From the NCBI GenBank assembly GCA_937863045.1, contig CALMBU010000098.1:1-53056 (forward strand): a stretch of DNA of 53,056 bases, written 5' to 3'. Made by a program: the position numbers and the translations under genes. Numbering within the stretch: the stretch's first letter is position 1; the number at the start of each line of letters is the position of its first letter. Of this stretch, positions 2,726 to 45,189 are shown one piece after another. The DNA is from an uncultured Polynucleobacter sp. GTDB taxonomy: Bacteria > Pseudomonadota > Gammaproteobacteria > Burkholderiales > Burkholderiaceae. The notes under the pieces are model-generated. The model saw only the letters and a program-made list of their open reading frames with translations. It did no database searches and had not been told where the DNA came from.

Positions 2726-3925
2726 ATGGCTTGGTTAGAACAAACTAGAGATTTTGTGTTGAATTGGATTGCTAATGGCTACCTGAATTGGTCTTGGTGG
2801 CAGATTTTGTTGATCACACTGTTGTTGACTCACATCACCATTGCCAGTGTGACAATCTTTTTGCATCGTTGCCAGGCGCACCGCGCTTTAGAGTTGCACG
2901 CTATTCCCTCTCATTTCTTCCGTTTTTGGTTGTGGTTAACCACCGGTATGGTCACCAAAGAGTGGGCTGCGATTCACCGCAAGCATCACGCTAAGTGCGA
3001 AACCGTTGATGATCCTCATAGTCCTCAAGTATTGGGTATTGGCACCGTCTTATCAAGAGGCGCTGAGCTATATCGTGCAGAAGCAAAGAACAAAGAAACG
3101 ATTGAGAAGTTTGGTCACGGTACGCCTGATGACTGGATGGAAAAAAATCTTTACTCAAAATATCAATGGCAAGGTGTTGCATTGATGTTGATCATTGATG
3201 TGATTCTTTTTGGAGCATTGGGCGCCACTGTTTGGGCGGTTCAAATGTTGTGGATCCCAATCACTGCAGCCGGCATCATCAATGGCATGGGTCACTACTG
3301 GGGCTATCGCAATTACGATTGTGAAGACGCCTCTACTAATTTGATGCCTTGGGGTATTTTGATTGGTGGCGAAGAGTTGCACAACAATCATCACACTTAT
3401 GCCACCAGCGCAAAGTTATCAAATAAATGGTACGAGCTTGATATTGGTTGGGTTTATATCCGTGGATTAGAAATGGCTGGTTTGGCAAAAGTTAAAAAGC
3501 TGCCACCTAAGCCAGTATTGGCTGAGCTTGGTCAAGCTTCAGAAAAGACTTTGCAAGCCGTGATTGCCAACAGATATGAAGTGATGGCGCGTTACTCAAA
3601 AACTTTGCGTCAAACTTTTGATGCAGAAGTTGCGCACATGAAAGAACTCGCTGCGCAATTTGGTGATCAACATCTTTGGTTATACAAAGATGAAGCCAAG
3701 TTAACAGAAGCTGAGCTTGCAAGCCTTGAGAGGCTCATGGCAACGAATAAGTCAGTGAAGTTGATGGTTGAGATGCGTCGCGATCTAGCAAGTCTCTGGC
3801 AGCGTTCTCACGTGACCAAAGAGCAATTGATCACTCAGTTGCAACAATGGTGCCACAAGGCCGAAACAAGTGGCATGGCAGGCTTGCAAGAGTTCTCCTT
3901 ACGTTTGCGCAGATACACCGTTTAA
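2726..3925 (+). CDS. Membrane fatty-acid (acyl) desaturase, delta-9 type
   Basis: Di-iron membrane enzyme that introduces a double bond into acyl chains, controlling membrane fluidity. The three histidine boxes of the acyl-CoA/lipid desaturase superfamily are visible: HRCQAH (47-52), HRKHH (84-88) and HNNHH (near 220). Hydrophobic segments lie around residues 25-47, 62-75 and 150-185. The 399-residue length includes about 130 hydrophilic, helix-rich residues after the last box, a longer tail than in the shortest bacterial desaturases; its role is unknown. The ATG at 2726 has GAGAGG upstream as ribosome-binding site. A strong bidirectional terminator follows, separating it from rpmG. Confidence 0.88.
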   Translation: MAWLEQTRDFVLNWIANGYLNWSWWQILLITLLLTHITIASVTIFLHRCQAHRALELHAIPSHFFRFWLWLTTGMVTKEWAAIHRKHHAKCETVDDPHSPQVLGIGTVLSRGAELYRAEAKNKETIEKFGHGTPDDWMEKNLYSKYQWQGVALMLIIDVILFGALGATVWAVQMLWIPITAAGIINGMGHYWGYRNYDCEDASTNLMPWGILIGGEELHNNHHTYATSAKLSNKWYELDIGWVYIRGLEMAGLAKVKKLPPKPVLAELGQASEKTLQAVIANRYEVMARYSKTLRQTFDAEVAHMKELAAQFGDQHLWLYKDEAKLTEAELASLERLMATNKSVKLMVEMRRDLASLWQRSHVTKEQLITQLQQWCHKAETSGMAGLQEFSLRLRRYTV

Positions 3926-39518: not shown

Positions 39519-39604
39519 ACAAGGTTTCCGAATTTCTAATGAAATTCAATAAGTTAGCAGTTTTGTAACTTCTTAGTCTATTAAAGTGAGTGAGTACTAA
39601 CATT

Positions 39605-42175
39605 ATGCCAGCATCCAAAGCCAAAAAAGTTGTTTCCAAGGCAAGCCCTAAAAAAGTCAGTGCAAAGCCAGTAGCTAAGAAGCCTGCACCTAAAAAAGCA
39701 GCAGCTAAGCCTGTAGCCAAAAAAGCCAGCAAGCCAGTAGCTAAACCAGCAGCTAAAAAATCAAGCAAGCCAGCACCTAAAAAAGCAGCAGCCAAGCCTG
39801 TAGGCAAAAAACCAACAGCCAAACCAGCGGCCAAGAAGCCAGTTGCTAAAAAAGCTGCGGTAAAGCCTTTGGCTAAAAAACCTGTCAAAGCAGTTGCCAA
39901 GCCGGCACCTAAAAAAGCAGCAGCTAAGCCTGTAGCAAAAAAAGCAGCCGCTAAGGTTCCAGCTAAATCAGCTAAATCAGCCAAGCCAACAAAGGCAGAA
40001 AAGCCAGCAAAAGTTGCTGTTAAGACAGCAAAAGAGTTAAGAGAAGAAGCTAAGTTAGCCAAAGCATTGGCTAAAGAATTGGCCAAAGCCGAAAAACTAA
40101 AAGCCAAGAAAGCTAAGGAAGAAGCAGCAAGTTTGGCTGTTGCCACTGATGAGAATGGCGAGCCAATTAAAAAGACACGTGGTCGTAAACCAAAACCAGT
40201 CGAGCCAGTAGATCCAAATGTGGATAACCGCACCGACCGTCAAAAAGCACGCGATCGCAAAGCAAAAGAAAAAGCATTATTGCAAGAGTTCAATGCCCAG
40301 AAATTAGGTAGTGAAGAGCAGCAGGAGTTGCGCCGTGCCCGCTTGAAGCATTTGATCAAGATGGGTAAGTCACGAGGCTACTTGACGCATGGCGAAATCA
40401 ACGACGTGATGTCAGATGAAATCTCTGATTCAGATTCATTGGAAACATTGATCAACTTGTTGAGCGACATCAGCATCACTGTTTACGAACAAGCACCAGA
40501 CGCAGAAACATTGTTGTTGAATGAAAACGCACCTTCTGCCACAACCGAAGAGGAAGCTGAAGAAGAAGCTGAAGCAGCTTTATCAACCGTTGACTCTGAG
40601 TTCGGAAGAACAACCGATCCGGTCCGTATGTACATGCGTGAAATGGGCACAGTTGATCTTTTGACTCGTGAAGGCGAGATTGTCATTGCCAAGAAGATTG
40701 AAGCCGGTCTTAAAGAGATGGTGATGGCATTGTCAGCATGTCCTGTGACGATTTCTGAGATTTTGGATAACGTCAAGAAAATCGAAGAAGGTACGATGGA
40801 GATCGATGAGTTTGTCGATGGTTTGGTTGATCCAAATGCAGAAGACATCCCAATGACTGCCGTTGAAGAAGAAGAGCCTCTTGAAGATGAGGAAGGCGAA
40901 GAGGGTGAAGATGAGGGCGGCGGTGGCGGCGGTGGTAATACTGCGTCCGCTAAGCAGCTTGAAGAATTAAAGCAGCTTTCTTTGGTTAAGTTCGTGGTGA
41001 TCCGCAATCAATTTGAAAAGATGCGCAAAGCTCATGAGAAAGAAGGATACAACTCTCCTGGCTACAAAAAAGCACAAGAAGCGATTCGTAATGAATTGAT
41101 GGGATTCCGTTTAACAGCCAAGTCAGTAGAAAAACTTTGTGACACGATGCGTAAGCAAGTAGATGAAGTTTGGGCTTTGGAGCGCGGTTTGGTTCGAGTG
41201 CTTGTTGATAAGGTGGGTGTGCCACGTGGTGAAGTGCTTGCCGCTCTACCAAAACAAGCTCTGAATTTAAAGTGGTCTTCAATCTTGTTGAAAGACGCCA
41301 AGTCTTACGCGGCGATTCTTGAAAGAAATATTCCTGCAGTTCAAGAAATTCAACAAAAGTTAATCGATATTCAAAATAAAGTCGTATTGCCACTTCCAGA
41401 GCTAAAAGAAGTGAACAAGAAGATGAATGAGGGCGAGAAACGTGCTCGTGCAGCTAAACGTGAAATGACTGTTGCTAACTTGCGTTTGGTGATCTCGATT
41501 GCTAAAAAATACACCAACCGTGGTTTGCAGTTCTTGGACTTGATCCAAGAGGGCAATATCGGTTTGATGAAGGCAGTGGATAAGTTTGAATACCGTCGTG
41601 GTTATAAGTTCTCAACTTATGCAACATGGTGGATTCGTCAGGCAATCACGCGTTCAATCGCTGACCAGGCCCGCACAATCCGTATCCCTGTTCACATGAT
41701 TGAAACCATCAACAAGATGAACCGTATCAGCCGTCAAATTTTGCAAGAAACAGGTGTTGAGCCTGATGCTGCAACATTGGCCTTGAAGATGGAGATTCCA
41801 GAAGACAAGATTCGCAAGATCATGAAGATCGCCAAAGAACCTATCTCAATGGAAACTCCAATTGGTGATGATGCAGATTCAAACTTGGGCGACTTCATTG
41901 AAGACACCAACACCTTGGCTCCGCAAGAAGCAGCTTTGCATGACTCGATGCGTGATGTGGTCAAGGACATCCTTGATTCATTGACACCGCGTGAAGCCAA
42001 AGTATTAAGAATGCGTTTTGGTATTGAGATGAGCACTGACCATACTTTGGAAGAAGTGGGTAAGCAGTTTGACGTTACACGTGAGCGTATACGTCAAATA
42101 GAAGCTAAAGCTTTGCGTAAAATGCGTCATCCAAGCAGAAGCGACAAACTCAAGAGCTTCTTAGAGGAAGATTAA
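39605..42175 (+). CDS. rpoD: Primary RNA polymerase sigma factor (sigma-70) with long Lys/Ala/Pro-rich N terminus
   Basis: Housekeeping sigma factor directing RNA polymerase to most promoters. 856 residues from ATG 39605. The first 140 or so are low-complexity Lys/Ala/Pro repeats like histone H1, then a charged helix and an AT-hook-like [10 protein letters not shown] near 190. Normal domains follow: region 1.1 ([10 protein letters not shown]...[12 protein letters not shown]), 1.2 ([11 protein letters not shown]), a non-conserved insert with an acidic and Gly-rich run ([10 protein letters not shown]), region 2 ([33 protein letters not shown]), 3 (IRIPVHMIE) and 4 ([20 protein letters not shown]). 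The N-terminal DNA repeats about 33 bp units. A 5' GTG at 39590 is also in frame. Function of the H1-like extension is unknown. Confidence 0.96.
39690..39950. repeat. Imperfect internal repeats in the 5' part of rpoD
   Basis: At least three copies of a roughly 33-bp unit coding [13 protein letters not shown] start near 39692, 39772 and 39905, embedded in shorter AAPK/KPVAK-coding repeats. They underlie the H1-like N-terminal tail and could change in number by recombination or slippage. Confidence 0.8.
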
Positions 42176-42182
42176 TCCATAC

Positions 42183-42259
42183 GGGCCCTTAGCTCAGTTG
42201 GTTAGAGCAGAGGACTCATAATCCTTTGGTCCGCGGTTCAAGTCCGCGAGGGCCCACCA
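42183..42259 (+). tRNA. tRNA with CAU anticodon, probably tRNA-Ile2
   Basis: A complete 77-nt cloverleaf: acceptor GGGCCCT/AGGGCCC, D arm GCTC..GAGC, anticodon stem GAGGA/TCCTT with loop CTCATAA, T arm CGCGG/CCGCG with TTCAAGT, and an encoded CCA. The anticodon is CAU. The T loop TTCAAGT and the variable loop ending in TTGGTC resemble E. coli tRNA-Ile2, whose C34 becomes lysidine through TilS to read AUA, more than elongator tRNA-Met. It is unlike initiator tRNA. The tRNA call is firm; Ile2 over Met is a judgement. Follows rpoD by 7 bp. Confidence 0.9.
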
Positions 42260-42268
42260 GAAATTAAA

Positions 42269-42296
42269 ATGCCAACCTACGGGTTGGTATTTTTTT
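42269..42296 (+). terminator. Intrinsic terminator after rpoD and the tRNA
   Basis: A 9-bp stem, ATGCCAACC (42269-42277) with GGTTGGTAT (42282-42290, one G-T pair), 4-nt loop, followed by six T's. Ends the rpoD-tRNA transcript. Confidence 0.92.
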
Positions 42297-42370
42297 AATC
42301 AAGTAAGTTATTCCCATTCCTTGTATAGTCTATTGATTACTTCAACCGATTTTATTTTTATTGAATATTT

Positions 42371-43411
42371 ATGCCTTATAACGGTCGTCTTACTTCTCTT
42401 TCTCATGGTGGTGGTTGTGGTTGCAAAATTGCACCAGGTGTTTTAAGCGACATCCTTAAGGCTTCACCCATCAGAAATATCCCGGGTGCCTTGCTGGCCG
42501 GCTCAGATAACAATGAGGATGCCGCTGTTTATCAAATCAATGAGAGCCAAGCCATCGTTGCCACGACTGATTTTTTTATGCCCATCGTTGATGATCCATT
42601 TGAGTTTGGTCGAATTGCTGCAACAAATGCCATATCTGATATTTATGCAATGGGTGCACAACCTTTGTTTGCTTTGGCCTTGCTTGGCATGCCCATCAAT
42701 GTCTTACCAATGGAAGTCATTCAGCAGATCACAGCCGGTGGCGAATCAGTCTGCAATGATGCTGGCATCATGATTGCTGGTGGTCATTCGATTGATACCG
42801 TTGAGCCTATTTATGGATTGGTTGCAATTGGTCTGGTTGATCCTAAAAAACTCAAGAGAAACAGTGGTGCCAAAACAGGCGACAGCATTATTTTAAGTAA
42901 GCCGTTAGGTGTGGGCATTCTTTCAGCAGCATTGAAGAAAGAGCAGTTGTCCGAGTCTGGTTATCGCGAGATGATTGCTTTAACAACCAAACTCAATAAG
43001 CCTGGTCTTCAGTTAGCGCAATTGGAAGGTGTGCATGCTTTGACCGATGTCACAGGATTTGGTTTGGCTGGGCATTTACTTGAGGTGGCCCGTGGTGCCA
43101 AGTTACAAGCTAAATTGGATTGGAAGAGCATCCCAGTTATTGAAGAGGCTATTAGCTTGGTGCAAAAAGATATTTACACCGGCGCCTCAACTCGCAATTG
43201 GGTAGGCTACGGCAATGAAGTGAAGTTGGCCCAGAATATATCTTTGTGGCAGCAGAATTTACTCACTGATCCCCAAACCAGTGGAGGTCTACTCATTTCT
43301 TGTGCTCCGGAAGTAGAGCAAGAGGTGTTGGCGATATTGCAAGCTGATGATTTTGGTGATGCCAAAAAAATTGGATACTTTACTGCGGGATCTGGCCTTT
43401 CAGTAGATTGA
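42371..43411 (+). CDS. selD: Selenide, water dikinase (selenophosphate synthetase)
   Basis: Makes selenophosphate, the donor of all known biosynthetic selenium, from selenide and ATP. The 346-residue AIR-synthase-fold protein has the active-site loop HGGGCGCKIAPG with Cys16, Cys18 and Lys19 (Cys form, no in-frame UGA), then ATTDFFMPIVDDPFEFGRIAA, SDIYAMGAQPLFAL and MIAGGHSIDTVEPIYGL. No selA, selB or mnmH gene is in the window. It converges with a SenB-type gene only 6 bp away, the partner that uses selenophosphate in selenoneine synthesis. It is separated from the upstream tRNA by a terminator. Confidence 0.95.
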   Translation: MPYNGRLTSLSHGGGCGCKIAPGVLSDILKASPIRNIPGALLAGSDNNEDAAVYQINESQAIVATTDFFMPIVDDPFEFGRIAATNAISDIYAMGAQPLFALALLGMPINVLPMEVIQQITAGGESVCNDAGIMIAGGHSIDTVEPIYGLVAIGLVDPKKLKRNSGAKTGDSIILSKPLGVGILSAALKKEQLSESGYREMIALTTKLNKPGLQLAQLEGVHALTDVTGFGLAGHLLEVARGAKLQAKLDWKSIPVIEEAISLVQKDIYTGASTRNWVGYGNEVKLAQNISLWQQNLLTDPQTSGGLLISCAPEVEQEVLAILQADDFGDAKKIGYFTAGSGLSVD

Positions 43412-43417
43412 GAAAAG

Positions 43418-44419
43418 TTAATTATTAACTCTCTTTAACAATGATTCCATCAGTAATTTGATGCTTCTCTTTTCAGCTGAAGGTTGCGCATAACGAACTC
43501 TCTTTTTGATGTGCGCTTCTAGAGACTTATAAAAAGAAGGTTCGAACTCTGCTTTTTGCAGTATTAGCGCCAAAGCTTTTGCGTCTCTGACTGGGTAATA
43601 GCCAGGATAGTCATCTCCAAGCAGACCACGATTACCCGGAATATCTGATGCAATCACTGGTACACCAATGGCAATGGCCTCTGTGACAACGTGAGCGCCA
43701 CCCTCCATGAGACTTGATATCACCATCAGATGACTGCGAGAGAGTTGCTGTAGTGTCTCAGAGTGGCTCAGTTCATCAAGCCATTGGTAGTTCTTGAGTT
43801 CTTTGTTGTATGCCTTTGCTAGGCTTTTCATCTCCGAGCTCATGGCCTTGCCCAGATGTAACACTTTTATTTTGCTTTCAGGCCCAAGGTATTTCAGACT
43901 TTCTGCTGTGCAAAAAGGATCTTTTTCTGGTCTTAGGTGGCCAATCACGCTGATTAAGAAACTCTTCTTCAAAAGAGCTTTGCGTTTGACTGGCTTAGTA
44001 GATTGATAAATGGTGTGTGTTTTTGCTTGTAAATGCTTCGGAATCATCGCCAATGCAGCAGATTGCAAAATAACGATAGCATCTGACATTTCCATTGATT
44101 TCAGCACCTCAGAATGCTCTGGCATATCTCGATACAAATCGGTGCCAGTCATGATGAGGATGATGGGGCGATTCGGATGAACCTTTCGGAAATGAACAAT
44201 CGATGCGTGGCTTCTATAAGCGTGCAGGGCAATCAATATATCCGTGCTCTTGCCAGACCACTGAGTGTAGATCCGAGCTTCATGACCTAATTTTTTCAGA
44301 AAGCCCTGCCAGCGCAATGCCGTGATGCGATTGCCATGCAGGCTTCCTGGTGGAGCAGGAGTCACGATTTCTATGTGGCTTGTAATGTTAAGGCCTTTTA
44401 TAAATTGCAAGAACTTCAT
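43418..44419 (-). CDS. senB: SenB-type selenosugar synthase (TIGR04348-like glycosyltransferase)
   Basis: A 333-residue GT-B glycosyltransferase that best matches SenB. SenB is established to join selenophosphate to a UDP-sugar, giving a selenosugar in selenoneine synthesis. The SenB-like N terminus reads IEIVTPAPPGSLHGNRITALRW (about 16-37, split here as IVTPAPPGS then GNRITALRW), differing from ordinary GT4 enzymes; later ITGTDLY-like MTGTDLYRDMP, the linker GHLRPEKDP (160-168) and the donor-binding EGGAHVVTEAIAIGVPVIAS (239-258). It converges on selD. The assignment is from recalled family features, not a search; a generic glycosyltransferase is the alternative. No senA is seen in the window. 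Confidence 0.78.
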   Translation of the reverse strand: MKFLQFIKGLNITSHIEIVTPAPPGSLHGNRITALRWQGFLKKLGHEARIYTQWSGKSTDILIALHAYRSHASIVHFRKVHPNRPIILIMTGTDLYRDMPEHSEVLKSMEMSDAIVILQSAALAMIPKHLQAKTHTIYQSTKPVKRKALLKKSFLISVIGHLRPEKDPFCTAESLKYLGPESKIKVLHLGKAMSSEMKSLAKAYNKELKNYQWLDELSHSETLQQLSRSHLMVISSLMEGGAHVVTEAIAIGVPVIASDIPGNRGLLGDDYPGYYPVRDAKALALILQKAEFEPSFYKSLEAHIKKRVRYAQPSAEKRSIKLLMESLLKRVNN

Positions 44420-44586: not shown

Positions 44587-45189
44587 ATGAACACACTAGA
44601 CGCTATCCGCCAAAGAAGAGCCATTAAACACTTTGATCCAGCTCATCAATTCACAAAAGAAGAAACGCAACAATTGATTGAATTGGCGATGCAAGCACCT
44701 TCGTCATTCAATATCCAGCATTGGCGTTTGGTGAATGTCACGGATAAAGCCCTAAGAGTCCAGTTGCGTGCAGCAGCACATGACCAAGCTCAAGTAACGG
44801 ATGCTTCTCTATTGTTTGTTATTGCTGTGGACATCAAAGCTTGGAGCAAAGATCCTGCCAGGTATTGGGTCAATGCCCCTAAAGAAGCTCAAGACATCTT
44901 GGTGCCATGGATCAATCCTTTTTACTCTGGCGATGAGCAACTACAGCGTGACGAAGCCATGAGATCGGCAGGTATTTTGTTGCAAACCATGATGTTGTCT
45001 GCCAAGGCCATGGGTTATGATTCTTGCCCAATGGTAGGCTTTGACTTTAAGAAAGTCGCTGAATTGGTTCACTTGCCAAAAGACTTCGCTCTGGCTGCGA
45101 TGTTGCCTATTGGTAAAGCCACGAAACCAGCCTGGCCAAAACCTGGTTTCATTCCTCAATCAGAAATGATCGTTGAAAATCATTTCTGA
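44587..45189 (+). CDS. Nitroreductase family protein
   Basis: A 200-residue FMN-dependent oxidoreductase. MNTLDAIRQRRAIKHFDP begins with the family's Arg-rich FMN-phosphate segment, followed by ELAMQAPSSFNIQHWRLVNV, and the C terminus has GYDSCPMVGFDFKKVAEL and ALAAMLPIGKA. The electron acceptor is unknown. Divergent from senB across a 167-bp AT-rich spacer with no clear terminator or operator; a link with selenium chemistry would be guesswork. Confidence 0.86.
   Translation: MNTLDAIRQRRAIKHFDPAHQFTKEETQQLIELAMQAPSSFNIQHWRLVNVTDKALRVQLRAAAHDQAQVTDASLLFVIAVDIKAWSKDPARYWVNAPKEAQDILVPWINPFYSGDEQLQRDEAMRSAGILLQTMMLSAKAMGYDSCPMVGFDFKKVAELVHLPKDFALAAMLPIGKATKPAWPKPGFIPQSEMIVENHF

Follow-up and report, generated by a model that had tools for sequence, protein, structure and literature searches.

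A Polynucleobacter sen cluster lacking senA and egtD: a probable SelD-SenB route to a selenosugar

The window analysed here, a stretch of 53,056 nucleotides, is contig C98 of a metagenome-assembled genome (G000; 1.45 Mb in 176 contigs), whose completeness of 95.4 % bounds every absence reported for it and whose nearest matches by SenB search are Polynucleobacter; the organism is a freshwater bacterium. We found that the window contains a complete sen cluster minus senA and egtD, with the selenophosphate synthase gene selD and the selenosugar synthase gene senB left in place. We propose, with a probability of about 0.6, that SelD and SenB form a pathway that ends in a selenosugar or feeds another enzyme. 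Gene trees suggest that senA and egtD have been lost at least three times independently in the genus. According to the available text of PMC10702425 and to PMC9814287, SenC/SelD makes selenophosphate, SenB makes the selenosugar and SenA joins the selenosugar to hercynine.

The window SelD scores 512.1 bits against NF002098 (cut-off 299) and 417.8 bits against TIGR00476, is 88-92 % identical to the SelD of complete sen clusters at five loci (L066, L067, L068, L072 and L073) and supplies the SelD/SenC component of the selenoneine pathway. The converging gene had been taken for a SenB-type glycosyltransferase in a sequence-only reading of this DNA, and profile searches bear this out. Its product scores 367.7 bits against TIGR04348 (cut-off 300; residues 16-325 on model positions 1-309), while the runner-up families are the next NCBIfam model at 97.4 bits and Pfam Glycos_transf_1 at 65.1 bits; assignment to a generic GT4 family was rejected on these scores. 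The short segments quoted in that reading are present in the respective proteins. The best PDB sequence matches are solved SenB chains (E 1.3e-53 to 5.9e-60). The AlphaFold2 model (mean pLDDT 90.9) has a predicted GT-B fold like that of solved SenB, and in a Foldseek search of the PDB the top 15 matches are all SenB chains (TM to query 0.84-0.90), followed by BshA at 0.75. Because the first 10 residues have a pLDDT below 50, the true start of senB may lie downstream.

The part of PMC10891094 available to us assigns control of the sugar donor to N20, T23 and E231 of SenB and names K158 as the putative catalytic lysine. In the alignment to the PDB sequences these residues correspond to N30, T33, E239 and K166 in the window SenB, and Q131, H235 and E239 to Q139, H243 and E247. 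All seven are kept, donor residues included, together with the EGGAHV motif. Among 40 SenB compared, the equivalents of N20, Q131, K158, E231 and E239 are conserved in 40/40 and that of T23 in 38/40. The V157 position is E in the window SenB and in 39 of the 40 sequences, and is thus the family norm. Sequence and model together firmly support the prediction that ORF 43418-44419 is a genuine, intact SenB, and with SelD beside it the organism is likely to have the capacity to make a selenosugar.

Table 1. Features of the sen locus in the window
Feature	Position	Strand	Basis
rpoD, left-hand landmark	39590..42175	+	98.9% identity over 545 aa to L073
tRNA-Met (cat), left edge of sen locus	42183..42259	+	ARAGORN
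Closed-up senA place, 111 bp between tRNA-Met and selD	42260..42370	.	L073 senA directly upstream of selD
selD, selenophosphate synthase (selenide, water dikinase), 346 aa	42371..43411	+	NF002098, TIGR00476
Closed-up egtD place, 6 bp between two stop codons	43412..43417	.	L068, L073 have egtD here
senB, selenosugar synthase (Se-glycosyltransferase), 333 aa	43418..44419	-	TIGR04348, PDB SenB sequences, AF2 fold
Nitroreductase-family protein, divergent from senB	44587..45189	+	PF00881 111.6 bits

The gene order in the window is rpoD, tRNA-Met, selD, the converging senB, the nitroreductase gene, a gene for a 104-aa protein, phasin and an SSF transporter. Both selD and senB are open, and the 6 bp that the sequence-only reading had placed between them is the stop-to-stop gap. 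The interval between tRNA-Met and selD contains a short hairpin and the selD leader. A promoter scan at the locus found none, and no transporter gene adjoins senB in the window. Elsewhere in the window, positions 2726-3925 encode a DesA-family desaturase with the DesA/ISL3 tail domain common to ISL3 transposases, and the RpoD N-terminus (39590-40250) has a long Lys/Ala/Pro repeat stretch.

The three nearest relatives by SenB, L068 (G118), L072 and L073 (G154), all have senA-selD-egtD converging on senB. The left half of L073, from Polynucleobacter sp. AM-26B4, consists of rpoD, tRNA-Met, an insert of about 5 kb, senA, selD and egtD, and its right half of the converging senB, a nitroreductase gene, the 104-aa protein, phasin and an SSF transporter. 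The rpoD landmark identifies the window locus as the same one, with senA and egtD gone from either side of selD and only 111 bp and 6 bp left. In complete clusters of the genus the gene that senB converges on is egtD or selD, and the convergent layout of the window is therefore explained by loss of senA and egtD from a cluster already arranged this way. This layout had been called unusual, and so had the divergent nitroreductase. We rejected convergence as an oddity since complete clusters in the genus usually have it. The nitroreductase, rejected as a partner in the system, adjoins senB in L068 and L073 and does not in L072, G005 or G089; we judge it an unrelated chance neighbour.

Several layouts seen in the course of this comparison are described here for their own sake. 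The L073 insert (about 14.5-18.6 kb) carries copper-type genes, multicopper-oxidase-like and cupredoxin-like by reading, and sits between an intact tRNA-Met and, immediately upstream of senA, a partial duplicate of that gene's 3' end, which is the mark of insertion targeted to a tRNA gene. The single contig of G062 has two senA-egtD-senB sets, around 717 kb and 1144 kb of C1. The same four genes, which include thioredoxin-like, DsbD-like and ATP-grasp-like ones, lead each set. On the single contig C1 of G068, senB (1107 kb) is unlinked from senA (961 kb) and egtD (952 kb).

To what extent senA might lie outside the window was addressed by searching the whole assembly. The SenA model found nothing at E<=1e-13 in G000 (best match E 5.3e-11), and the EgtD model TIGR03438 had no match there, so that the supply of hercynine is missing as well. 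PF03781, the kind of domain found in SenA and EgtB, gave a single match, a FGE-sulfatase-like, periplasmic-type protein of 261 aa with a signal-like start (G000:C173:16183-16875; L031), encoded directly after MsrPQ-like genes. It was rejected as SenA or EgtB for its scores (43 bits to SenA and 33 bits to EgtB), its length and its MsrPQ-like neighbours. Short weak matches to the SenA model, of about 43-49 bits, recur across many genomes of the genus. The sequence-only reading had seen no SenA-like (EgtB-like) gene in the window and left a choice between senA elsewhere and another fate for the selenosugar; none was found in the assembly either, senA elsewhere in it was rejected on the PF03781 and SenA-model searches, and the balance leans to another fate. 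Of the two products then considered, selenosugar or selenoneine, the selenosugar stays likely and selenoneine synthesis becomes unlikely on this gene content, because senA and egtD were not found, their places are closed up and the three nearest relatives keep both genes there. With neither SenA nor EgtD, a selenosugar would not be converted to the antioxidant selenoneine.

The assembly does encode MnmH (374 bits, G000:C25:1707-2624), which together with SelD gives the 2-selenouridine trait, so SelD keeps one known use. The presence of mnmH or selA, together with the absence of any selenosugar product, had been held in advance to count against a selenosugar role; mnmH is indeed there, but an intact senB under selection is left unexplained by it.

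To estimate how widespread this gene content is, we searched 186 Polynucleobacter genomes for SenB, which was over the cut-off in 57, and sought SenA and EgtD in each of the 62 genomes whose SenB match reached E<=1e-20. In Polynucleobacter, the full-length SenA proteins lie at 349-400 bits and thus below the model cut-off of 420; they are called SenA because the two that were scanned beat EgtB (398 vs 213 bits and 391 vs 182 bits) and such proteins usually sit at the senB locus. Proteins of 403-462 aa with about 309-325 bits to the SenA model, mostly in genomes without SenB, were taken as EgtB. SenA is present, whole or as pieces at contig ends, in 49 of the 57 SenB genomes and was not found in 8. 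Good-quality genomes with SenB and without SenA and EgtD number five (5/57): G000, G005 (L074, Polynucleobacter sp. 30F-ANTBAC; 20 contigs, 99 % complete) and the single-contig G120, G136 and G161 (99-100 % complete). Against the SenA model, G120 gives 45 bits at best, and nothing reaches E<=1e-13 in G136 or G161. G074 (56 % complete) and G134 (59 %) were not counted owing to incompleteness, nor was G100, which has a piece of egtD at a contig end and perhaps senA in the gap. In G109 (91 % complete) senB is in two pieces at two contig ends and SenA and EgtD were not found; it may be a sixth case and is not counted in the five. G134 and G109 have one senB neighbour gene in common.

Five of the 62 genomes fall below the SenB cut-off. 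The gene has an N run inside it in G053 and is split over contig ends in G109 and G182, while in G102 and G107, where it lies on a single contig without N runs, it is broken by frame changes. Those two broken genes indicate that senB can be lost. In G102, senA and egtD are broken as well. The G107 gene (C1:310347-311275) is broken by a single frame change beside intact senA, selD and egtD; true loss and sequencing error are both possible.

We also looked for partner genes. In G120, G136 and G161 an MFS transporter gene ends 2 bp ahead of the senB ATG, with a 4-bp overlap in G120 if a TTG start is used. This MFS gene is confined to one clade, and since the pair is found beside complete clusters too (G103, G062), it is only suggestive for the fate of the product. 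In a non-exhaustive comparison, no gene recurred as a partner in all SenA-less cases.

Two trees address whether these genomes share one loss. In an MnmH tree of 40 genomes chosen out of 121 (G136, G161 and G154 were left out), G000 groups with G118, G005 with G089 and G041, and G120 with G103 and G062, all of these partners having complete clusters. For the three SenA-less genomes the tree requires 3 changes, every one forced by starred branches, and the count stays at 3 when rows G053 and G109 are removed. The SenB tree has 37 sequences of the genus, out of 57 genomes and with G096 left out, plus 3 outgroups; on it the five SenA-less genomes need 4 changes and a single clade for them is rejected (p-AU 0.00025). 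Both trees reject one loss common to G000 and G005. Placing G120, G136 and G161 together in a single clade is not rejected (p-AU 0.325), so we keep the estimate at no fewer than three losses. The junction downstream of senB in G120 differs from that in G136 and G161, and a 26-gene tree of five genomes does not group these three, in a region that may recombine.

To look at constraint on the retained gene, we estimated omega on terminal branches with a codon model scripted by the authors (GY94-type, F3x4). For G000 senB omega is 0.177 against a background of 0.118 (difference p=0.10), and omega=1 is rejected at p=1.6e-12. The corresponding values are 0.122 for G005 (p=2.7e-9), 0.137 for G120 (p=5.6e-18) and 0.191 for G136 plus G161 (p=6.7e-18), and none of the SenA-less branches differs significantly from background. 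SenA-bearing controls range similarly: 0.191 for G118, 0.133 for WC_6, 0.079 for G154, 0.123 for G041, 0.231 for G103 and 0.224 for G062a. The senB genes of the SenA-less lineages are full-length, and these estimates indicate purifying selection along them. Part of each tested branch predates the loss of senA, and synonymous sites are close to saturated (branch lengths of about 1 or more), so a recent relaxation of senB may have occurred.

SenB without SenA is also found outside the genus. We searched 399 genomes drawn from the order and found SenB over the cut-off in 118. Outside the genus, 117 genomes have a strong SenB match, and SenA was sought in 80 chosen from them; it is over the cut-off in 56, and 16 have no match above 170 bits. 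Among the latter, no match at E<=1e-13 was found in G201, G226, G252, G269, G275, G286, G356 and G424, weak matches of 61-83 bits are found in G233, G475 and G541, and OvoA-length ORFs with 159-169 bits to the SenA model in G198, G212, G351, G369 and G407. A bare senB-selD operon is present in 3 of the 16 (G226, G252 and G424), and in G541 senB is followed by a SelD-containing fusion. For the other 12, no selD was found on the locus examined (about 20 kb; about 10 kb from senB). A 40-row SenB comparison, from which L157 was left out because it gave no SenB, yielded a tree in which SenA-less and SenA-bearing kinds are intermixed, with 9 changes of which at least 4 are forced by starred branches.

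Seven of those 12 genomes have one common neighbourhood, with genes that we named MotAB-like and rRNA-methyltransferase-like by reading. On their 20-kb loci (L164, L165, L168, L172, L173, L175 and L176) the SenB-model proteins score over 400 bits and neither selD nor senA was found. At L173 MotAB was not seen and the remaining common neighbours are present. Loci L078-L080 have the same methyltransferase neighbour.

If the genes act as their families predict, SelD would turn selenide into selenophosphate, part of which would go to MnmH for tRNA 2-selenouridine and part to SenB. SenB would then move selenium onto a UDP-sugar and yield a 1-seleno-sugar; the characterised SenB prefers UDP-GlcNAc. 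We infer both this reaction in the window organism and the fate of its product, which would be an end product, or the substrate of a further step, instead of a selenoneine precursor. Most likely it would serve to trap, detoxify or store reactive selenium present in surplus, or to export it; trapping or exporting the excess is the simplest use. Mammals, for comparison, excrete selenosugars.

We hypothesize, at a little under even odds, that SelD and SenB without SenA constitute a selenium pathway of their own in which the selenosugar is made for its own sake, as a means of trapping selenium, storing it or sending it out of the cell. Such a pathway would have been reached repeatedly by losing the selenoneine half, and would also exist as a stand-alone two-gene operon in the order. 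The retention of senB after several losses of senA and egtD suggests that the selenosugar itself is probably useful. Alternatively, the window pair could be a decaying relic of a recent loss of senA and egtD, with a senB that is useless and next to go and a selD kept solely for MnmH. MnmH is present, selD is over the cut-off in 117 of 121 genomes of the genus regardless of whether they have sen genes, G102 and G107 have a broken senB, and the G000 omega is slightly above background, all as decay would have it. We nevertheless regard decay as unlikely, because it would have to account for at least three independent cases with a full-length senB whose tested catalytic residues are kept (checked in G000, G005, G120 and G136), for the rejection of omega=1 on each lineage tested, and for the removal of egtD directly beside an untruncated senB in both G000 and G005. 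The 16 of 80 SenB genomes outside the genus that lack SenA argue against it as well.

It is also conceivable that the selenosugar feeds another C-Se bond-forming enzyme, whether ovoselenol-type or otherwise FGE/EgtB-like, or that a missed enzyme completes selenoneine. The ovoselenol enzyme is SenA-like. Ovoselenol is known as a second bacterial selenometabolite (PMC13188914, in the part accessible to us), and the OvoA-length matches in 5 of the 16 non-genus genomes would suit such an enzyme. We consider it very unlikely here given that the only PF03781 match in G000 is the short, low-scoring protein described above, and that in the single-contig genomes G120, G136 and G161 SenA-model matches are equally weak or lacking and egtD is absent too. 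A role for SenB outside selenium metabolism, with another acceptor such as thiophosphate or phosphate, is highly improbable in the window: senB adjoins selD or a SelD fusion there and in G005, G226, G252, G424 and G541, and the equivalents of N20, T23, Q131, K158, E231 and E239 are invariant or nearly so among the 40 SenB compared. Such a role would fit the SenB-model proteins of several other families that lie in the conserved MotAB-like/rRNA-methyltransferase-like context with no selD found on loci of about 20 kb. It would also fit the V. paradoxus enzyme, for which the available text of PMC10702425 gives a discrimination against thiophosphate of only 10-20-fold.

Among the papers covered by our literature search we found none on SenB without SenA. 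They treat SenB solely as the intermediate enzyme of the selenoneine route or as a means of producing organic selenium. Each part of the proposed SelD-SenB pathway is already known; what is new is the repeated reduction to SelD-SenB, although a prior mention, for instance in the founding work (Kayrouz 2022, 2024), is possible. If the proposal is true, a selenosugar would be a natural bacterial end product and a further dedicated use of selenium, and a SenB match alone would not predict selenoneine.

Compared with the Polynucleobacter sen locus of L073, L068 and L072, the window keeps the order of the remaining genes and, relative to L073, the same chromosomal place (flanked by rpoD and tRNA-Met on the left and by nitroreductase, phasin and SSF on the right), and differs in being without senA and egtD. 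The Variovorax paradoxus cluster (senA-senB-senC/selD) likewise has SelD/SenC and SenB adjacent, and its SenB, which shares about 34 % identity with the window protein in the structure alignment, has the same fold and catalytic residues; in contrast, no SenA or EgtD was found in the window genome, the genes are convergent and the pathway would end at the selenosugar. With the MnmH (SelU) 2-selenouridine pathway, which is encoded in this genome, SelD is common to both, whereas MnmH uses no selenosugar. The senB-selD operons of G226, G252 and G424 are similar in content, with SelD and SenB and no SenA found in the genome, but they are co-directional whereas the window pair is convergent, and the H235 position is F in G226 and G424, N in G252 and H in the window.
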